Part shown: positions 1 through 64,000 of the stretch, piece after piece
How the letters are laid out: each line of letters starts with the position of its first letter
Numbering within the stretch: the first letter of the stretch is position 1
From: Protonemura montana
Lineage: Eukaryota; Arthropoda; Insecta; Plecoptera; Nemouridae
Length of the DNA stretch: 64,000 nt
Assembly: GCA_947568835.1 (NCBI GenBank)
Contig: OX387602.1
Location: 18,713,021-18,777,020 of the forward strand
Reading direction: 5' to 3'
Position numbers and translations under genes: made by a program
Notes under the pieces: generated by a model
What the model saw: the letters and a program-made list of their open reading frames with translations, nothing else
The model's database searches: none
Told to the model about the DNA's origin: nothing

Positions 1-169
1 TAAGTTACATTTTCTTTTAGTAACAGTAGCCATCTTTTCATTTAGCGTTCCCCACCATGGCCAATATTGTTTCGTCGATGTTATCACCCCCTGGTAGCCA
101 GGCTAGGAACTAAAACATAATTTGAATTTTTTTTCTTGCCCTGGAGAATGATTGGTGTGATTAAAAAAA

Positions 170-252
170 GATGTAGGCAACGAGGATCGAACGCAGGACG
201 TTTGATACCTGATGCACCTACATAAACCGCTCGACCACAAGACCCGCTCTCC
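170..252 (-). repeat. tRNA-like sequence 1 (tRNA-derived repeat)
   Basis: On the minus strand this reads like a decayed tRNA. It has an A-box-like motif TGGTCGAGCGG (227-237) and a B-box-like motif GCGTTCGATCC (184-194), spaced as in tRNA genes. The acceptor and T stems do not pair properly, so it is unlikely to give a working tRNA. It is probably the head of a tRNA-derived SINE or a tRNA pseudogene, and is the first of six such sequences in 2.6 kb, all in the same orientation. Confidence 0.55.
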
Positions 253-540
253 ATGATACGTTTTTTTGGGATACAAAAACTGTTCAACTGTGACAACTCC
301 GTCAAAAAATCCGAAAAAATCTCAAACACTATGAATTTCACTATGATTTTCAATAAAAGATATTTCGATGAAACATTATAAACATCAGCTTCAGTATTGC
401 CCATCATCGTACAAAATAAAAAATACGTTCGAAGTCTTGTGCAGTTTACTCATCCTGGATCTTTCACTATGTATGAACAGACTGTCGTATAACACCACTT
501 GGACACCCAGGACGACGGTGCCATACTCTGGCGCTGGCCC

Positions 541-833
541 TTAGGTCTAGCATCAAGCGTTTAGGAACGATTATAATTAGTGTTACGCATCATCAGCGCC
601 ACCTGTTGACAGGATTTTGTACTACACTTTGGAAAAATATGTTGATATTTTCCTGCTGTATTTTCATAGTAATTGTCCGATTAGTTAATGAATTAGATTA
701 AAAATCAGACTTGGAAAATGTCTTCAATTATTACAAGTCCAGAGTATAGTACAAAATCCTGCCAACAGGTGGCGCTGATGATGCTTAACACTCATTATAA
801 TCGTTCCTATATACTTGATGCTAGACGTAGGAG
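541..833. repeat. Foldback element with about 89-nt inverted arms
   Basis: Positions 545-633 and 739-829 are inverted copies of each other, close to nine bases in ten identical by eye, separated by about 105 nt. Both arms contain the string AGCGCCACCTGTTG and end near TCTAGCATCAAG. There is no coding capacity. The form is that of a non-autonomous DNA transposon (MITE or foldback type), but no clear target-site duplication was found, so the family is not assigned. The right arm ends about ten bases before the hairpin run starting at 840. Confidence 0.7.
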
Positions 834-839
834 CCCGGT

Positions 840-1107
840 TGCGTGAGCGACTGGCGCTCCGCGCCAGTCGCTCACGCACGCTGCTGGGCCCTGGCGCGGA
901 GCGCCAGGGCCCAGCAGCGTGCCGGTGCACCCGTGCACCTGAGCGCGCGAAGCGCGCTCAGGTGCACGGGCGCACCGGTGGGCGTCCAAGCGCGCTTCGC
1001 GCGCTTGGACGCCTACTTTCGCGCGCTGGCGCGCGCGAAGCGCGCGTGAGCGTTACAAAATTGCGAAGCGCGACTGGCGCGAAGCGCCAGTCGCGCTTCG
1101 CAATTTT
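840..1107. repeat. Run of six GC-rich hairpins with three-base loops
   Basis: Six inverted repeats follow one another. H1 has arms 840-857/861-878 (loop TCC). H2 has 878-897/901-920 (GGA). H3 has 922-948/952-978 (GAA, one mismatch in 27 pairs). H4 has 981-995/999-1013 (TTC). H5 has 1030-1036/1040-1046 (GAA). H6 has 1057-1080/1084-1107 (GAA, 24 perfect pairs). Read on the appropriate strand every loop is G-N-A. The inner stems fall into two types: CTGGCGC in H1, H2 and H6, and GCGCGC in H3, H4 and H5. The outer stems differ from one hairpin to the next. Open frames across it are by-products of the palindromes. I know no named family with this arrangement. Confidence 0.85.
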
Positions 1108-1163
1108 CGTGGTATCTACACCGTACGCCCAAAAAAAAATAAGATATGTGATACTGCAGTAAC

Positions 1164-1254
1164 TGTGCGGATGGGATTCGAACCCGGGACCCCTTCAGTA
1201 TTATGGTTAATTCACAAGAGGTTGTGCCTTGTACCGCACGACCACGCGGGCATC
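1164..1254 (-). repeat. tRNA-like sequence 2
   Basis: The minus strand has A-box-like TGGTCGTGCGG (1234-1244) and B-box-like GGTTCGAATCC (1174-1184). Acceptor pairing is poor, so this is a tRNA-derived repeat or pseudogene rather than a functional tRNA. It lies just beyond the hairpin run. Confidence 0.55.
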
Positions 1255-1354
1255 TAGTTGTAGAGGCATTTTTATGGTATTTAATTTCTTCAGACTGCAG
1301 CTACCATATGTGAATAATTTGAATGTCGTATTCCAATAGAAAAAAATATCCTGT

Positions 1355-1440
1355 CAGTGAGCGGGTTCGAACCAGGTCGCATCGAGGCTTGTTGGTTCCG
1401 AAGTAACGATATGTCCATTGTGCTACGCAGACGTTCATCC
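1355..1440 (-). repeat. tRNA-like sequence 3
   Basis: The minus strand has A-box-like TAGCACAATGG (1415-1425) and B-box-like GGTTCGAACCC (1363-1373), about 50 nt apart, with an anticodon-loop-like stretch between them. The stems are imperfect. It is probably a tRNA-derived repeat. Confidence 0.55.
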
Positions 1441-1899
1441 TTGCTGTGGTAAACTGAATATATTTTAATTTTATATCTGATGTCCCTGTCTAACGGGTTG
1501 ACTATAGGTACATGTCACTGACGGCACTCAATGCATACTACGGTTCGGAGTCGCATTCTTCTTTGCGTTTCAGTGAACCATCATTTAAGAAATTCAAGAT
1601 ATTATGACCGACTATGACCGACTTACGCAGCGAGCAAGAACTGGACCTGACCCCCGCACCAAGTAATGCAGGGGCAATCGTCCACTCCAAAGATACGGGC
1701 TACCACCAGTTGCCGCGATCTAGCGTGAAAGTGTCAGCTGATAGCGCCCTCTGCAGGGACGCGAGCCACACCCAGTTGCTGGTTTGTCGTTTTTTTTTTT
1801 TGCCTTCTTATCCGACCCCGGCAGCAAGGAGATTGCTTCACACTACATCGCCTCTGCCATGCACTATCAAAGATTGTGCAAGCTATGTCATGAAGAACA

Positions 1900-1985
1900 A
1901 AAAGCGGAGCGGACAGGACTCGAATGCGGTCACATCCAAATTGCTCTTTCGAGGAGCGACTTTTCCAACCGGCCATCGAGACGAG
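1900..1985 (-). repeat. tRNA-like sequence 4 (SINE family shared with sequence 5)
   Basis: The minus strand has A-box-like TGGCCGGTTGG (1965-1975) and B-box-like CATTCGAGTCC (1916-1926). The flank ATGAAGAACAAAA on the plus strand just before it recurs before the copy at 2148-2232. The two are therefore members of one dispersed family, most simply a tRNA-derived SINE. Confidence 0.6.
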
Positions 1986-2147
1986 ATAATTACCGATGGA
2001 ACAAAGAGATACATGAATAGCAGAAGACGACTACAGTGTAATAATGAAAAGAGTCAAAAATACTTTGAGAGTTTCGATGGATGAACGAGCGATGCAATAT
2101 TTGCAGCATTCAATGAATGCCAGTCGCCACTTGATGAAGAACAAAAT

Positions 2148-2232
2148 GAGGATCGGGCAGGATTCGAACTCGAGTCATTTAAACAATGTCCCCATGAAGA
2201 AGTGGCCGTACCTCACGGCCACTGAGACGTGT
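2148..2232 (-). repeat. tRNA-like sequence 5 (same SINE family as sequence 4)
   Basis: The minus strand has A-box-like AGTGGCCGTGAGG (2211-2223) and B-box-like AGTTCGAATCC (2160-2170). It shares the ATGAAGAACAAAA flank with the copy at 1900-1985, so both halves, tRNA-like head and tail, were duplicated together. Confidence 0.6.
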
Positions 2233-2514
2233 TGCTATTCCGGAGGAAATAACATATACTTGAATAGCGGCTGGCGGGGATCACGGTACACCATCGAGAA
2301 GAGATGTTAGTTTTCTCTGTAAAGATGAATACATATCCAGCAGTTTTACACACATGTGACTTACTTACCTGCTTCGAGCCAGCGACCCTCTGCACCCTGG
2401 CGCTGAGCACGAGAGCGATCTTCACTCGCCGCCGAATGGACGCTACGAAAACCGGCGAGAGTTGCATGACAATACTTTAACAATCTTGGTAGGTGATTGA
2501 TTCTTAGTTAAAAA

Positions 2515-2560
2515 TAGTGCACCAAGCGGGATACGAACCCGGCCCCGTTTATCCTCCGTT
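2515..2560 (-). repeat. Partial tRNA-like sequence 6
   Basis: Only a B-box-like GGTTCGTATCC (2529-2539, minus strand) with a matching T-arm context is clear. No A box was found at the right distance. It is probably a truncated tRNA-derived repeat. Confidence 0.35.
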
Positions 2561-5500
2561 CCACTTTCATGTACCTTTTGAAAAAATTTGTCGACAAGAG
2601 TCAACACGTCGACGATTCATAAAATTGAATAGACGATTTACAACCAGGCTACAGGACTCTACGAAATCGTAGAAACACGATACACGATATTAACACGATA
2701 TTACAACACAATATTAATTGCCTTTGGAATTACTGAAAATAAAGCCCTTTTGAAATCGTCTATCTACTTCTCAGAAAAATGCTTGTGCTAGGGCAAAAAC
2801 ATACTGGTGCATTTCTTTGTCTGGAATGCGATACATTTTCTGCCCACTGCAGAGGTTATTTTTGGCGTAAGCTCACGTTAGCCCCGCGTACCCACTTTTT
2901 CTTGTCATTTAATTTTGGCGTGTGAGGTGCTGCCTGAGTTTTTTTCGGGGCACAAAATTTGGGTTTTGCTTCGGGCGTCCAAACCCTACACTGTGCGGAC
3001 ACGACACAATCGTATCTCAAGTCGATACGTCACAGGTGTATAATTTTGGTTTAATTAATTTCAAATTGGCCATTGATCGATCATTGTATCTGTAGAATCT
3101 CCATTCTCCAACGCCGGACTTGGGCGCTGCTACCAGTTTATGTGTATACAACCCTTAGTTTAACTATACACCACCTTGCATATACATTCCTTTCCTGCTT
3201 CCTTTGTTTTTTTTTTTGTTTTTTTTCAACATTTCACCGCTAAAACCCGATCGAATCATGTAAACGAAAATGCAATGAACAGAGAATACCAAAAGGAGCA
3301 TGCAGCGTACCTACCCCTTTTCCAAAGAAAAAGAAAATATTAAAGAAAAAAAAATCTACGCTCATCCACTAGGCAACTCAAATTGCGTTTCGAAGCTCTA
3401 GTTGGTTGGGCTCCCAAAAATCTATACTTTGTGCATCCCTTGCACCCGCATATCAACAAATATTTTAAATTTTCCTAAACGTTTCATGAGTTTCCATGGA
3501 GTTTCTTGGTTCCTGAGTTTCCTAGATAGTTTCAGATAGACACACATATTTTAATTTTAAGTACATTTTGGGCATTTTAACTGCTCCGACGATTTGTTTG
3601 CTTCAAAACAGGAAACACTCTCTAAGTATTAATTTAAAATTAAATCTTTATGTAATGTTCTCTTTGAAGTCCACCCCTTTTAACAACCCATACAGGGAAA
3701 ATAGCGCTATTCGAATATTTACTGTATTTCAGTATGCTGGTGCTTAGGCAACCTCGTACATGCATGTGCTGCGGCTGTTATAGCTCGCAGGCGCCAAGGA
3801 ATGGAATGTCTGTCTTGGCCCTCGAACAGCAAGTTGCCCATCCAACCAACTCCCCCTCCTCACACTTTTTGAAAAAATATGTCTAAAATATGTCATTCTT
3901 ATTGGGTAGATTTAATTCCGAAGTTTGGATGCAGCTGTGCTGCGTGAGGAACGGTAATGGTATGGAGGAGGGAAGGGGTAATTAATTTGAAGTTGGCTTT
4001 GAGAGCTGAAGCTATGCATTTGGACTTGACGACTAAAGAAGCCTAGTTTGTATGGCAATTTCAAACAAATTGCACACGATTTACCGAAAACTAATGACGT
4101 AACAGGCAACCGCGATCAGAAAATTCGCTTCTGGGCTATCGATATTTCCATTGGCAGAAATACAAATTTGAAACAGCAGCAGATCAACAAAGACATGACA
4201 AACAGAAGAATTCAGCCGTATCGATATAACTGTGATACCAACCAAAGAATACCTACAATCAAATCCCATCGAGTACTTTTCTCCGACAACAGAGCGCATT
4301 GCGATCTAGAAAGGGGCAAATTTTATTGAAATCCTCGCGACTATACATTTGAAATAAGTCGGTATTGTGGTGTACAGATGGTGCCACCAACGGGTTGGTT
4401 GGAGTCATAGGCCATAAAAAAACACCTCCGACAAATATTGTTTGAGTTGAAAGATTGCGAATGACTATATCTTGTTTTTGTCTCAATACATCCATTGCCA
4501 GACGTCTTTCATAGTCGAGTCTGATCTGACCGAGGAGGGACACATGATGGTTTTTAGACTCATGTCTACTTGATTTATCCTTAGCACTAGTTTTAAGAAA
4601 AACTATTTGAAATGGGTTTTGAATGCTAAGTTGTCTTTTACCTAGCTTTCAAAACCCATTTCAAATAGTTTTTAGAGGAGGGACACATTTTTTTCTTGAG
4701 AAGGCATAGTCGCACCATCACGTCATCCTGCACGAACACAAACTCGACACATTCACCCATCAATCTGCAATTTTCGTTTTACAAAACCATGAAGTTGTTT
4801 AATGAAATATTCGCTAGTTTTGGGAAAAATAGTATCATGCGTTTACACCTCTGCTTTCCAAATAAACTTTGCTTGCAAACGATAGTATTTCATCCCTTAG
4901 CTTAGACTTGAAAATAGGAAAACACCCTTGTTTTAAATTGCAAACCGAATGAAGTCTTATGAATGAATTTGAGCCCATGGTCTTCATTTTTCAATTGCCA
5001 ACCCAAACCGCTGTAGATGTCGAAAACTCAGGAATAATCGCGCTGCGCCGATAATGTTCTCTGCGCCCGCCGCTGCCTAGCGTCGGTCACGTGGGATAAT
5101 GTCTACCGCGACGCAGAACAGGCCACGTGACACATGATGACGTCTCGCTCGGAAGTGCCGGGGTCAGCGGTAGGTCAACTCAGACTTGTCTTTTCATTCA
5201 AGCTCTCATGAGTACCATCCAGCTAATGATTTATATCATTGCATGAGAATGTTTGTTAGAGACGATAACATAGATCTCTCCCTTTATAAGGAAAAATGTG
5301 GAAAATTATGCCCGGCGGAATATCAATTTCAATCGAAAGAAAAAAAAACAAGCTGGAGCAACTTTTTCTTCACTCAAAAGAATAATTTTTGTAGCTTGAA
5401 AAAAAATACAGAAAAATGTTTGAAGTTCATAGGTAATTATTATTAACGTTGTACATGAAATTTACACGAACGATGAAATAATTGGCCTTTCGTCCCGTGA

Positions 5501-54909: not shown

Positions 54910-57165
54910 ACCGAGATTTAATCATGTGTAGGTGACATTTTTGAGTTGAACTCTTGATGCTTGTTTTATTTCAAACAAGAAAGTGCGGTCTGTAAGGGAA
55001 ACATTAAGTCATTACCATGGACGGCTGTAGAGTTGAACCTCAATGGCAACTGCTGCAATTGGTATGCCTAGTGCACGCGCGTTTTTGTCAAATATTACAT
55101 ATTTGGAGGGTACCAAAACTAACTGCTGTAAATGATTTACAACATATTAAGCAAGATGTTTTTTCATAAGCTGGGGTACACAATATACTATCTATTTAAT
55201 TCACAAATGTGAAACAATGGAGAAACAAATCAATACTCACCACAATAAGTAGGTACAGAAGGCGGACATCTTTGGTAGTCAGACGCCCGGAGCGCGGGAG
55301 TTTGCGTTCTGATTGGTCGAGTCGGAAGCCCCGCGAACTAACCGGCTGTCTTTAAACCTACGCTCGTTGCAGGGCCTACTTTGCCACGGGGTTCGATCCC
55401 GAAGTTCTACAAAGATATCGTGGGAAATAATTCACAGTCTACATTGTATGTATTGGCATGGACGTTCATTTAATTTAACAGTTAAAATGAAAAACCGCAT
55501 GGTTTATTAGTAAGAAATAAACTTAAAATGTACGCTAATATAAAAATTGTGCGGTACAACAGTTGTGAGCTGTGGTTGTCGGTGAATGAGCAATGTCAAA
55601 TTTAAAGCGGGAACAAATTTGTTGGTCGCTGCGAAATGGCGGGAAACCGGGGAACTAACAGCGCCCTGCCGTGCCGTGGAGGTACGAGGGATTATTCGAG
55701 AGCCGGCGGGCAGACGGGAAGGCAGATATCTCTGGACCAGAAGCCTCCGGGATTCCAGAAAAAAGACCGCAGCATCCCCGACTAGAGGTGAGCTCGTGCT
55801 CTCCACAATACGCACGTCGATGTATGATATTCCATAGCGTTTCCATATATGATCCAGATGATCCAACCAAGAACCGAAGTTGGGAAGTTCTCCCTGGTGG
55901 CAGACGGAATACGGCTGTGGAACGAACTCCCTGCCATGGTCATGACGCTCTTCCCCAAGAACGCATAGGAATTAAGACGCCGGTTAAAAGAAAATCAAAG
56001 ACAGAATAATCCAAACGACTCGTCCTGTAAATAACGTAGCTAACTCCAACCGGACACCACTAACCAAACACCATACACACGGCAATCATAAAACATGTAC
56101 CATGCCTAAGTATGAGAATAAATAAATAAATAAATAAATAATTTAAAATAATAATAAGGGATCACTGAAACTGATATAACTGATAGCGACTGAAAGTGAC
56201 TACCGAAATCGTGTTTACGTACCCAAAAGGCGATTACCGTCCCTCGGTTGCAGATGGTGTTTCCACCCAAACTGTCGGCATCATGTTTACCTGTTAATTC
56301 GGGGTCACCACGCTCGTTTAGGGCTGCCGCCAAGAGAAATAACAGGTACAAGTCTCAGTCATTGCATATCATGATACACAATGATTCAGCTCCAGAGAAT
56401 CAAGGTGGCAACCAGATCATATAAGGGCGGCAAAGCACAAACTGACCTCGTATGGGTATCAAAATTGCATACACACCGCAGCATAGTATTGTCATTGGGT
56501 GTTATCGAAGTTCGTAGTTAGTAATGTAGTTTATCGTAGTAACCCACAAATCGTGATTTTCCATGTAATTTTAAATACCTTTGAGTTCGACTTCGGTTTG
56601 ATGACTTTCAAGACATTTGATGTATCTCAAATGGAAACGTCTGGGAAATGCTAATTGTTCAGATGCAATAGTGTGGTATGCTGCTGACCCTGGAAAAGTG
56701 TGTCATAGCGGGATTGGATAAGCTTTTTCGCGTAAAGTTGTAAGATATTGGGGAGTTTTAGTGGTAACTAGTCAATTGAACCAAGCTTGTCTCACGATGA
56801 CGTTACATGGCATAGGAACACAGACCTTTCACAAGTGCAAACACTCCTGACTCCCGATCGGAATACGTCATCCAACCCCAGAGGTCAAAGGTCACCCTGG
56901 CAAACGAGACAGATTTATTCAATTAAAATCAAATATCAATTAAAACGCGCAATTTCCATTAAAATATGTAACGGCCAAGTGAAAAATATAATCTCAGCGG
57001 TCATGCTATCTCATAAAATGTATTCATACGGAATTGATAAATTTCATTGATAATACAATTTGTTTTGCGTATGTGATTGTATTTTGCTCCAACGTTTGAC
57101 TTGATAACAAGACAGCTAATCTGAAGCAGTTTCCTTCGGCAGATTTTCCCGACATCGACATCATC
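54910..57165. other. Region between TTLL4 and the secreted coiled-coil gene
   Basis: The two genes diverge from this 2.3 kb. A GC-richer patch around 55260-55400 contains GATTGGTC (inverted CCAAT) and may hold the TTLL4 promoter or an untranslated exon. A second GC-richer patch lies at 55640-55810. A LINE tail follows at 55850-56145. The rest is unique-looking AT-rich DNA. Confidence 0.4.
55850..56145 (+). mobile_element. 5'-truncated LINE fragment (reverse transcriptase tail)
   Basis: A plus-strand frame near 55870-55970 reads GKFSLVADGIRLWNELPAMV, the pattern found at the C-terminal end of many non-LTR reverse transcriptases (F...A...LWNSLP). It is followed by a stop, more basic sequence (ELRRRLKENQ) and a terminal (AAAT)n run at about 56116-56141. 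A microsatellite-like 3' end and severe 5' truncation are usual for Jockey/CR1/I-type LINEs; the exact clade cannot be told from so short a piece. Confidence 0.6.
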
Positions 57166-62653: not shown

Positions 62654-64000
62654 TCACTTCATCGAACTTAAACCCATACCCGTTTCGTTGAACAAGCCGG
62701 CGGCCACGTTGATGTTGCGTAAGAGTATTACAACCGCGTGCACTGTCAGACGCAGTTTGTGCGGCGGCATTTCGGTCGGCGTAAGGGAGTTCAGGTACTC
62801 GACTGGAAAGTCATTCGCCTGTGCGTCATCCTGATAGCCCTCAGCAAACTCGACGGAGTCGGCACTGCAGTACTCGTGGACGTCACCCTCAAGTCGATCG
62901 AGAACTGCTTCGTTGATGGCCAGCGACTCGGTGTTCTTGGGACAGAGTATGGCGTAGTCCAGCATCTCGACCATCTCGCCGGTGGTGACGTTCTTGCCGA
63001 ACACGGCGTCTACGACGTTGGCAGCGATGCACTGGTCTGGCAGGGCGATGGTGTCTTGAGGAAGGTGATGGTCATTGAGCAGTTCGCCGTTGCCGACACG
63101 CAGCAGCCACTCGACGAACTGGTCCTCTCCTCTTTAGCGCGCATGTTGATGCTTAGCTCCAGCGTTCGGAACAGCGGCCACAGAGTGCAACGATTGATGC
63201 ACTGTTCGATGATGGACTTGCGGTGGCCGTTCCACACAACCGGGAGGCACTGTCGGAAGTCGCCGCCGAGCAGGATCACCTTCCCGCCGACGGGCCGATC
63301 GATGTTGGTCATGTCACGCAGCATGAGCTCGACCGCCTTGAGAGCCAGATGATGAGCTTCGACGCCCTCATCGCTCCACCCTCGTTGGTGTTTGGCTTCA
63401 CCCTGGACATGCTGTTTTCTACGATGGGAACGAGCAGTCGGAATCGCGAGTGGCAGGTCCGTTCTCCTTTAAGCAGCATCGCCGCAATGCCCGTCCAAGC
63501 GACAGCCACAGCACAATCGTTTCGGGCTCGCAGCGCGCTGATGATGGTGTTGTAGAGGAACGTTTTTCCACTGACTCCCGGGCCGTCCAGGAAGAAGCAC
63601 CTCTGCTCGGCGTCCAGGTTGTCGATAGCAGCCATCCCCTCTTCGAACGCCGCGCGCTGCCTGTCGTTGAGCATTGGCACGTTAGTCTCGGCCTCGACCC
63701 TCTTGGCGTCCTGGTTGAACTGCTCCTCGACGGCAACCACCACAGGATCTCGGGGCTCGGGCAAACCGATGTCGGCGTTCTTCAGCCTGTGTAGAGCGAG
63801 CACGGACTGAATTGCAATCAGCGCCATCTGCTCCGCCTCTTCGGGATCGTTGCCTCAGACAAAGTCCTCGCAGAAATCTCCCTGAAAGCGGTCCCTCAGC
63901 GAGCGCGGAGACGTTGGTTCGCAGAAGGCGCAGATCACGGCTAACAGCTGGTGGAGCTGATGTGGCATCTGAATAGTGGCGGCTTCCTCAAGACACCGCA
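62654..64000 (-). mobile_element. Decayed Helitron: PIF1-like helicase region, continues past window end
   Basis: The minus strand encodes parts of the PIF1-family helicase domain of a Helitron, a rolling-circle DNA transposon. Seen in order are the Walker A segment DGPGVSGKTFLYN (frame 63827-63309), the Walker B segment VILLGGDFRQCLPV (frame 63324-63010), and the C-terminal part with YAILCPKN and VVILLRNINVAAGLFNETG (frame 63004-62654). The three lie in different frames, and a TGA occurs upstream near 63857, so at least three breaks separate it from a working enzyme. The replication-initiator domain should lie beyond 64000. The sequence is much richer in GC than its neighbours. A host PIF1 gene is excluded by the Helitron-type C-terminus and the decay. 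Confidence 0.88.

Follow-up and report, generated by a model that had tools for sequence, protein, structure and literature searches.

The six-hairpin array and its host repeat

The DNA analysed here, called the window below, is a 64-kb stretch of the Protonemura montana genome (C1:18713021-18777020); the genome searched has 34 contigs and totals 258,480,905 bases. Six hairpins stand at positions 840-1107 of the window, each with a loop of exactly three bases that reads G-N-A on one strand. HP1 (840-878) has arms of 18 bp and the loop TCC, HP2 (876-922) arms of 22 bp and the loop GGA, and HP3 (922-978) arms of 27 bp with one mismatch and the loop GAA. The arms of HP4 (981-1013, loop TTC) are perfect over 15 bp and reach up to 26 bp in other copies, while those of HP5 (1030-1046, loop GAA) measure 7 bp in the window and 14 bp in many other copies. 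HP6 (1057-1107, loop GAA), with arms of 24 bp, is homologous to the single hairpin of a commoner module described below. Adjacent hairpins abut or overlap by a few bases (876-878, 922). In 2000 dinucleotide shuffles of positions 836-1112, hairpins with arms of at least 7 bp averaged 0.18 (maximum 4) against six observed, and those with arms of at least 12 bp averaged 0.001 against five observed. The folding z-score of the array DNA was -21.3. The six hairpins with three-base G-N-A loops described in the first-pass annotation are thereby confirmed as a real array, far above chance expectation. Its description of the outer stems as unrelated does not hold for HP1 and HP6, which share their inner 11 bases (GCGACTGGCGC), so that the stems are not all unrelated. 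The rest of the window has nine hairpins with three-base loops and arms of at least 7 bp; one of the nine is of the G-N-A type (TAC at 55096), close to the chance expectation of about 1/8.

Ahead of the array lies an inverted repeat with arms of 98 bp (left 536-633, right 738-835) and a 104-nt spacer, which is not homogenised and served as an internal control. Its arms hold a CCAACAGGTGGCGCT-like motif in opposite orientations (595-608 and 762-776), which we take to resemble the CTCF core motif.

A genome search with window positions 790-1140 gave 36 near-full-length arrays (75-100% identity). Pairs of hairpin heads 15-45 bases apart occur at 38 places, namely the 36 arrays and two others, and the HP1-HP2 pair is common to all 36 arrays. 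Thirty of the 36 arrays were aligned, with the window in place of its own copy (L032). The hairpin order is common to the 30 aligned arrays (HP5 is whole or partial in 28 and absent from L060 and L061), and their flanks are homologous for about 500 bases on each side. The arrays are therefore of common descent and spread within a larger repeat. This host repeat is dispersed and non-coding; it covers window positions 1-2580, and its homology begins about 1.35 kb upstream of window base 1. Four loci compared over a greater length have 2.3-2.6 kb in common with the window: positions 1-2580 are 91-94% identical to L020, L022 and L024, and positions 3-2312 are 89% identical to L023. Moreover, L027 (2603-6576) matches L025 (2671-6601) over a length equivalent to about -1350 to 2580 of the window. 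Judged from these alignments, what spreads is a dispersed repeat about 4 kb long.

The first-pass annotation had proposed a self-spreading palindrome, and this is not supported, since the arrays carry the same HP1-HP2 pair and, where aligned, homologous flanks, and it is the larger repeat that spreads. Likewise, the long homologous flanks of the array copies compared do not fit a hairpin that moves by itself to unrelated sites, as in organellar elements. The annotation had also named identical outer arms in every copy as the mark of an ordinary satellite or MITE. The arms are homologous between loci, as in an ordinary dispersed repeat, but they are not identical, and many of their differences are paired.

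Two open reading frames tested in window 1-2580 had no Pfam match; many dispersed copies without coding capacity (36 arrays; two frames tested) are a trait of foldback or MITE-type elements. At the right end, four loci finish exactly with ...ATCACATCTAG and four others one base sooner, while the left ends differ among the six loci compared. Neither terminal inverted repeats nor a target-site duplication were recognised by eye at the ends of these six loci or at the right ends. Helitrons have a 3' end of the form CTRR preceded by a hairpin and a 5' end with TC. Several copies of the host repeat have a precise terminus, CTA or CTAG, preceded by a short inverted repeat, for which non-autonomous Helitron-like elements are a possible comparison; no coding partner is linked to the repeat. 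A GC-rich module starting with CAGTGTCGGACTGGCC stands in direct orientation at both element ends in L027 (2606-2681 and 6619-6694) and at one end in some other copies. In L057 (1545-1865), GCGCGCTC-like repeats enlarge the HP5 region, and a second hairpin stands alongside it.

Arm agreement, paired changes and loop orientation

The arms of the hairpin stems mismatch within copies in 82 of 3653 cells (2.2%) in the 30 arrays, and the same columns differ by 5.4% between copies. In the 98-bp inverted repeat, mismatch within copies was 343 of 2891 cells (11.9%) and the difference between copies 3.5%. Copies differ by 7.2% and 11.3% in the two outer flanks and by 4.2% in the spacer of the inverted repeat.

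On a defined structure of 119 pairs in the 30 arrays, both sides had changed in 24 pairs and in 69 of 3509 cells. Shuffling gave averages of 8.3 pairs and 11.8 cells and never reached the observed values in 500 rounds, and sliding the partner by 1-3 columns left 1-3 pairs. In one parsimony reconstruction, using a tree built from the flanks only, the stems underwent 43 paired changes from one Watson-Crick pair to another, 23 of them on terminal and 20 on internal branches, and 76 breaks, of which 70 fell on terminal and 6 on internal branches, compared to 0 paired changes and 68 breaks in the inverted repeat of the same copies (Fisher p 2e-10 for stems vs. inverted repeat; p 3e-6 for internal vs. 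terminal). The effect of a short spacer, 43 paired changes in stems with three-base loops vs. 0 with a 104-nt spacer, is measured against one long-spacer control only. In that control a pair was restored by a single change 12 times, indicating that it is not wholly free of pair restoration. On terminal branches breaks exceed paired changes, which indicates that resident copies are corrected slowly; part of the surplus of paired changes on internal branches could be due to selection in the active lineage. Three neighbouring pairs changed together on the branch leading to L052/L054. A two-base change common to L033 and L036, which the tree does not place as sisters (the placement of L036 has low support, 56), adds four pairs to HP1; an arm is thus lengthened in two copies, in agreement with the earlier proposal. 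The tree is partly resolved (support of at least 95 at 7 of 27 nodes and of at least 70 at 15) and tracts may have been exchanged between copies, so that the event counts are approximate and could be inflated by exchange.

Among the 82 mismatches, 25 are G-T and 22 are A-C, a balance that argues against pairing or selection at the RNA level. No Rfam family reached the gathering level in the window, and ARAGORN (default settings) found no tRNA genes there. On the inverted repeat and the hairpins of L025, an Rfam search gave only miRNA-like matches, far below the gathering score; lowered tRNA thresholds gave weak tRNA-like matches in the nine loci tried. With no Rfam match at gathering level, no excess of G-T over A-C mismatches and hairpins in both directions, an RNA gene or RNA-selected structure was rejected as the main cause. 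Stretches that look tRNA-like by eye (GTTCGAAC-like) lie on the minus strand at about 165-250, 1165-1255, 1345-1440, 2140-2230 and 2515-2580, and a 5S rRNA match (65.5 bits) lies on the minus strand of L025 (780-898), at a distance of about 3.1 kb upstream from the window. As to a viral origin, a single exact pattern scan of viral contigs gave no match.

Among the 177 loops of the 30 copies, 175 read G-N-A or its complement, and the other two read CAA and GAC. On the tree, the middle base underwent at least 10 changes, vs. two at the outer positions (binomial p 5e-4). Parsimony gave at least 18 orientation flips in these copies (HP2 at least nine, HP3 at least four, HP4 at least five). The HP2 figure is about that expected with shuffled labels (8.3), indicating that there is no phylogenetic signal in HP2 orientation. 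Flips part the well-supported sisters L056/L058 (support 100, HP2), L039/L047 (93) and L050/L059 (93, HP3), and loop orientation also differs between the near-sisters L060 and L061. A swap between TCC and GGA amounts to three simultaneous changes. Flips were absent from HP1, HP5 and HP6 in the 30 copies, although the arms of HP1 and HP6 are long and mostly perfect; the HP1 loop starts with T in 36 of 36 arrays (T-N-C, once TCA). This lack of flips in the long-armed HP1 and HP6 is not predicted by a purely mechanical model.

The genome-wide check of the hairpin heads found CTGGCGC-N3-GCGCCAG at 703 places (reversed control 0) and the second head, AGCGCGC-N3-GCGCGCT, at 84. Among the 703 loops of the first head, 680 are G-N-A (348 + 332), and 490 are GAA (243 + 247). 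Heads with one mismatch number 178 (881 - 703) vs. 703 exact ones (reversed-pattern control 16), so heads do decay genome-wide. In the arrays, the inner six base pairs are nearly invariant, even as pairs (2 of 2130 base cells changed). Private changes in the 30 array copies rise from 0.09% in the inner 6 bp to 0.23% at 7-12 bp and 0.97% beyond; for comparison, they amount to 0.79% in the inverted-repeat arms and 1.83% in the flanks. Some constraint in addition to arm copying therefore acts on the inner six pairs. Immunity of the heads to mutation is ruled out by the 178 one-mismatch heads, the gradient being a property of the 30 array copies only.

Single-hairpin modules and copied arms

In the commoner module, an arm related to window 726-834 is followed by a G-rich block, a single hairpin and an A-run. 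It was aligned in 43 modules from 22 loci, which are those that passed a length filter and include several near-identical partners. In most of the 43 modules the stem is imperfect beside the head, with GA in the left arm and GA in the right arm. This imperfect form, GCGACTGGCGC-N3-GCGCCAGGAGC, occurs at 468 places genome-wide, which include HP6 of some arrays (L049, L051), and from its number we infer that it is ancestral. Among 100 of the 468 places listed, many of them members of tandem arrays and not independent, 99 loops read G-N-A and one AAA, and none was flipped.

In the aligned arrays, HP1-HP5 occupy the place of the G-rich block. L060 and L061, which are without HP5, have a 24-bp insert ahead of HP1 that by eye is like part of the G-rich block, and the decayed arrays L068 and L069 have the same insert. 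The best explanation is that the array derives from the commoner module with one hairpin beside a G-rich block.

The G-rich block is very conserved, has several G runs and adjoins the hairpin (L008:1835-2110 and most other modules); its G runs may be able to form a G-quadruplex. TAGGTGGGGTTTGGGG, taken from this block, occurs at 791 places with at most one mismatch, exact and mismatched matches pooled (control 11). Modules also occur in tandem arrays (G000:C13:8404144-8422055, C1:20138571-20142490 and L013), with periods of about 1763, 976 and 816 bases.

A homogenised form of the hairpin, GACTGGCGC-N3-GCGCCAGTC, was found at 70 places in all; among 50 of these 70 listed, 46 are in arrays and the other four are L073-L076. 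The reverse form, in which the left arm follows the right, was found at 3 places. The right arm of L074 is the complement of that copy's own left arm in 26 of 26 bases and at 4 of 4 informative sites; the copied arm includes a variant that L014 and other relatives also have, and the G-rich block has been lost as far as the hairpin base. L075 likewise has a right arm complementary to its own left arm in 26 of 26 bases and at 4 of 4 informative sites, with another variant; its G-rich block is intact and its loop is inverted to TTC. Copying was partial in the other two loci. Of six informative sites in L076, four follow its own left arm, namely three next to the head and one at a greater distance, with a site of the ancestral type between; in L073 three of nine do so, all of them next to the head. 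Going by the runs of copied sites, each overwriting would have been a single multi-base step. The earlier proposal that the arms are templated by their own hairpin is strongly supported by the paired changes and by this own-arm overwriting, and parental and derived copies are present side by side.

L071 has a homogenised main hairpin and, between this and the G-rich block, an extra 12-bp hairpin with the same head; by eye, another extra hairpin with a mismatch lies there as well. This suggests the birth of new hairpins from the shared head, and L071 is the best sign of it; a clean before/after pair for such a birth was not found among the loci. New snap-back hairpins may plausibly have enlarged the array.

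Template switching, rival explanations and further features

In our reading, to which we give a probability of about three in four, the array is the hairpin block of a dispersed repeat and each hairpin is a hotspot of template switching. During DNA synthesis, a strand would fold at the compact C-GNA-G turn, or the polymerase would jump across it, and one arm, or arm and loop, would be copied back into the other arm. Such back-copying would keep the stems near-perfect despite drift, flip the loops and lengthen the arms, and now and then it would probably leave behind a new hairpin with the same head. The G-N-A turn may help the strand to fold or the polymerase to jump. The DNA hairpin d(GCGAAGC) is very stable. 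A DNA folding model gave equal energy for the twelve lowest loops, the median loop and GAA, GGA, TTC and TCC, which neither strengthens nor weakens the G-N-A idea. One candidate activity would be snap-back extension of the Pol theta type, in which a snapped-back 3' end is extended from two terminal base pairs (PMC11292364); the data reported there are biochemistry of the human enzyme and have no link to the Protonemura montana genome. More broadly, C-GNA-G triloops might be a general nucleating turn for template switching in replication, the shared head folding, overwriting arms and sometimes seeding a hairpin beside a fork-stalling G-rich block, as local multiplication within a mobile repeat. 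We offer this extension tentatively, at odds somewhat short of even.

Selection probably acts on the active lineage as well. Selection alone, with functional hairpins (a protein-binding, nicking or replication signal) and compensatory point mutations fixed in the active lineage, is compatible with template switching and unlikely to be the whole explanation. It would fit the prevalence of paired changes on internal branches (20 vs. 6) and of breaks on terminal ones (70 vs. 23), the near-invariant heads of the arrays and the single loop orientation of the imperfect hairpins, as seen in the 100 of 468 places listed with their many tandem members. However, the loop swaps and the runs of several changes that copy an own variant (L074, L075, L052/L054) resemble single events, and G-T mismatches are not in excess of A-C.

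Alternatively, the hairpins might extrude as cruciforms in double-stranded DNA, with inversion by junction resolution and homogenisation by gene conversion between arms or copies. This would likewise yield flipped loops and homogenised arms, and near-sisters do differ in loop orientation (L056/L058, L060/L061). We consider it improbable, as the copied sites lie only beside the head in L073 and mostly so in L076, the larger inverted repeat has 0 paired changes, and in L074 the overwriting of the arm went together with loss of the G-rich block up to the hairpin base, which copying from a fold fits better. That the arrays are an ordinary dispersed repeat or satellite, still-young descendants of one perfect ancestor, would account for the homologous stems and the hairpin order common to the 36 arrays where compared; it is very hard to reconcile with copies that differ in flanks, spacer and stems to the extent given above, yet have an arm mismatch of 2.2%, and with paired changes and flips that postdate the separation of the copies; the paired changes contradict it unless alignment or assembly is in error. 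Palindromes are difficult to sequence, but an artefact of assembly or polishing is hardly credible when 30 aligned copies differ from one another in flanks and stem sequence and L075 carries a single event with its flanks intact.

The template-switch process favoured here is already known. Switching between the arms of inverted repeats has arm homogenisation and spacer inversion as its stated signatures in yeast coding genes (PMC8604942), and similar patterns are reported for the hairpins of RNA genes, where the evidence for maintenance of short stems is called circumstantial by the paper itself (PMC8794818). Inversion of the spacer between perfect arms is present in our material as well, in at least 18 array flips and in L075. 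The yeast and RNA-gene cases are alike in arm homogenisation, multi-base paired changes, full inversion of short spacers and recurrent flips (PMC8604942, PMC8794818). They differ in that those hairpins are scattered over genes, whereas here they form a conserved array within a nuclear multicopy repeat, for which hundreds of unconverted places serve as a reference for the parental state. In our tally of Table 2 of PMC8604942, three-base spacers occur in 4 of 10 genes (PIM1, YPS1, YBZ1, TAT2), and 4 of 4 are G-N-A or its complement, compared to 1/8 under equal base use, a figure that codon use may raise; the section with this table does not discuss loop sequence.

The short palindromic repeats of Volvox (PMC2670323) and the hairpin-forming elements of sponges (PMC2800124) are likewise hairpin families with nested or tandem hairpins and conserved stems, and those of Volvox have short recurring loops. 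Both are found in organelle DNA, and the hairpin itself is proposed as what spreads, whereas the array is nuclear and spreads, as far as the alignments reach, with a repeat about 4 kb long. In mitochondrial genes of nematomorphs, perfect inverted repeats have mismatch-poor arms that the authors think are actively maintained; unlike the array, these palindromes are coding and mitochondrial (PMC6649704).

A literature search gave no paper on G-N-A triloops with transposons, nor on tandem hairpins in transposable elements. Within this limited check, the system, its scale and the link to G-N-A triloops seem to be new: an extensive natural system in the nuclear genome in which parental and derived states occur together. 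Most inferences of template switching at small hairpins have hitherto come from isolated events. In the present genome the unconverted hairpin occurs at 468 places alongside converted, flipped and multiplied forms, so that tract length and direction, dependence on the loop and the influence of adjacent sequence could be measured. If the G-N-A loop is causal, a rule of DNA shape would predict sites of clustered mutation, which could be tested in published mutation data.

Larger palindromes were also found. L018 (667-5204) holds one of about 4.5 kb with arms 98.5% identical, and L030, L031 and L009 hold palindromes of 1.0-1.3 kb, indicating inverted duplication at several scales. Pieces of a PIF1-like helicase lie on the minus strand at window 62654-63854 in three overlapping open frames and are probably a degenerate helicase of the transposon type. 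Matches to UbiA, NUDIX and tubulin-ligase are also present.
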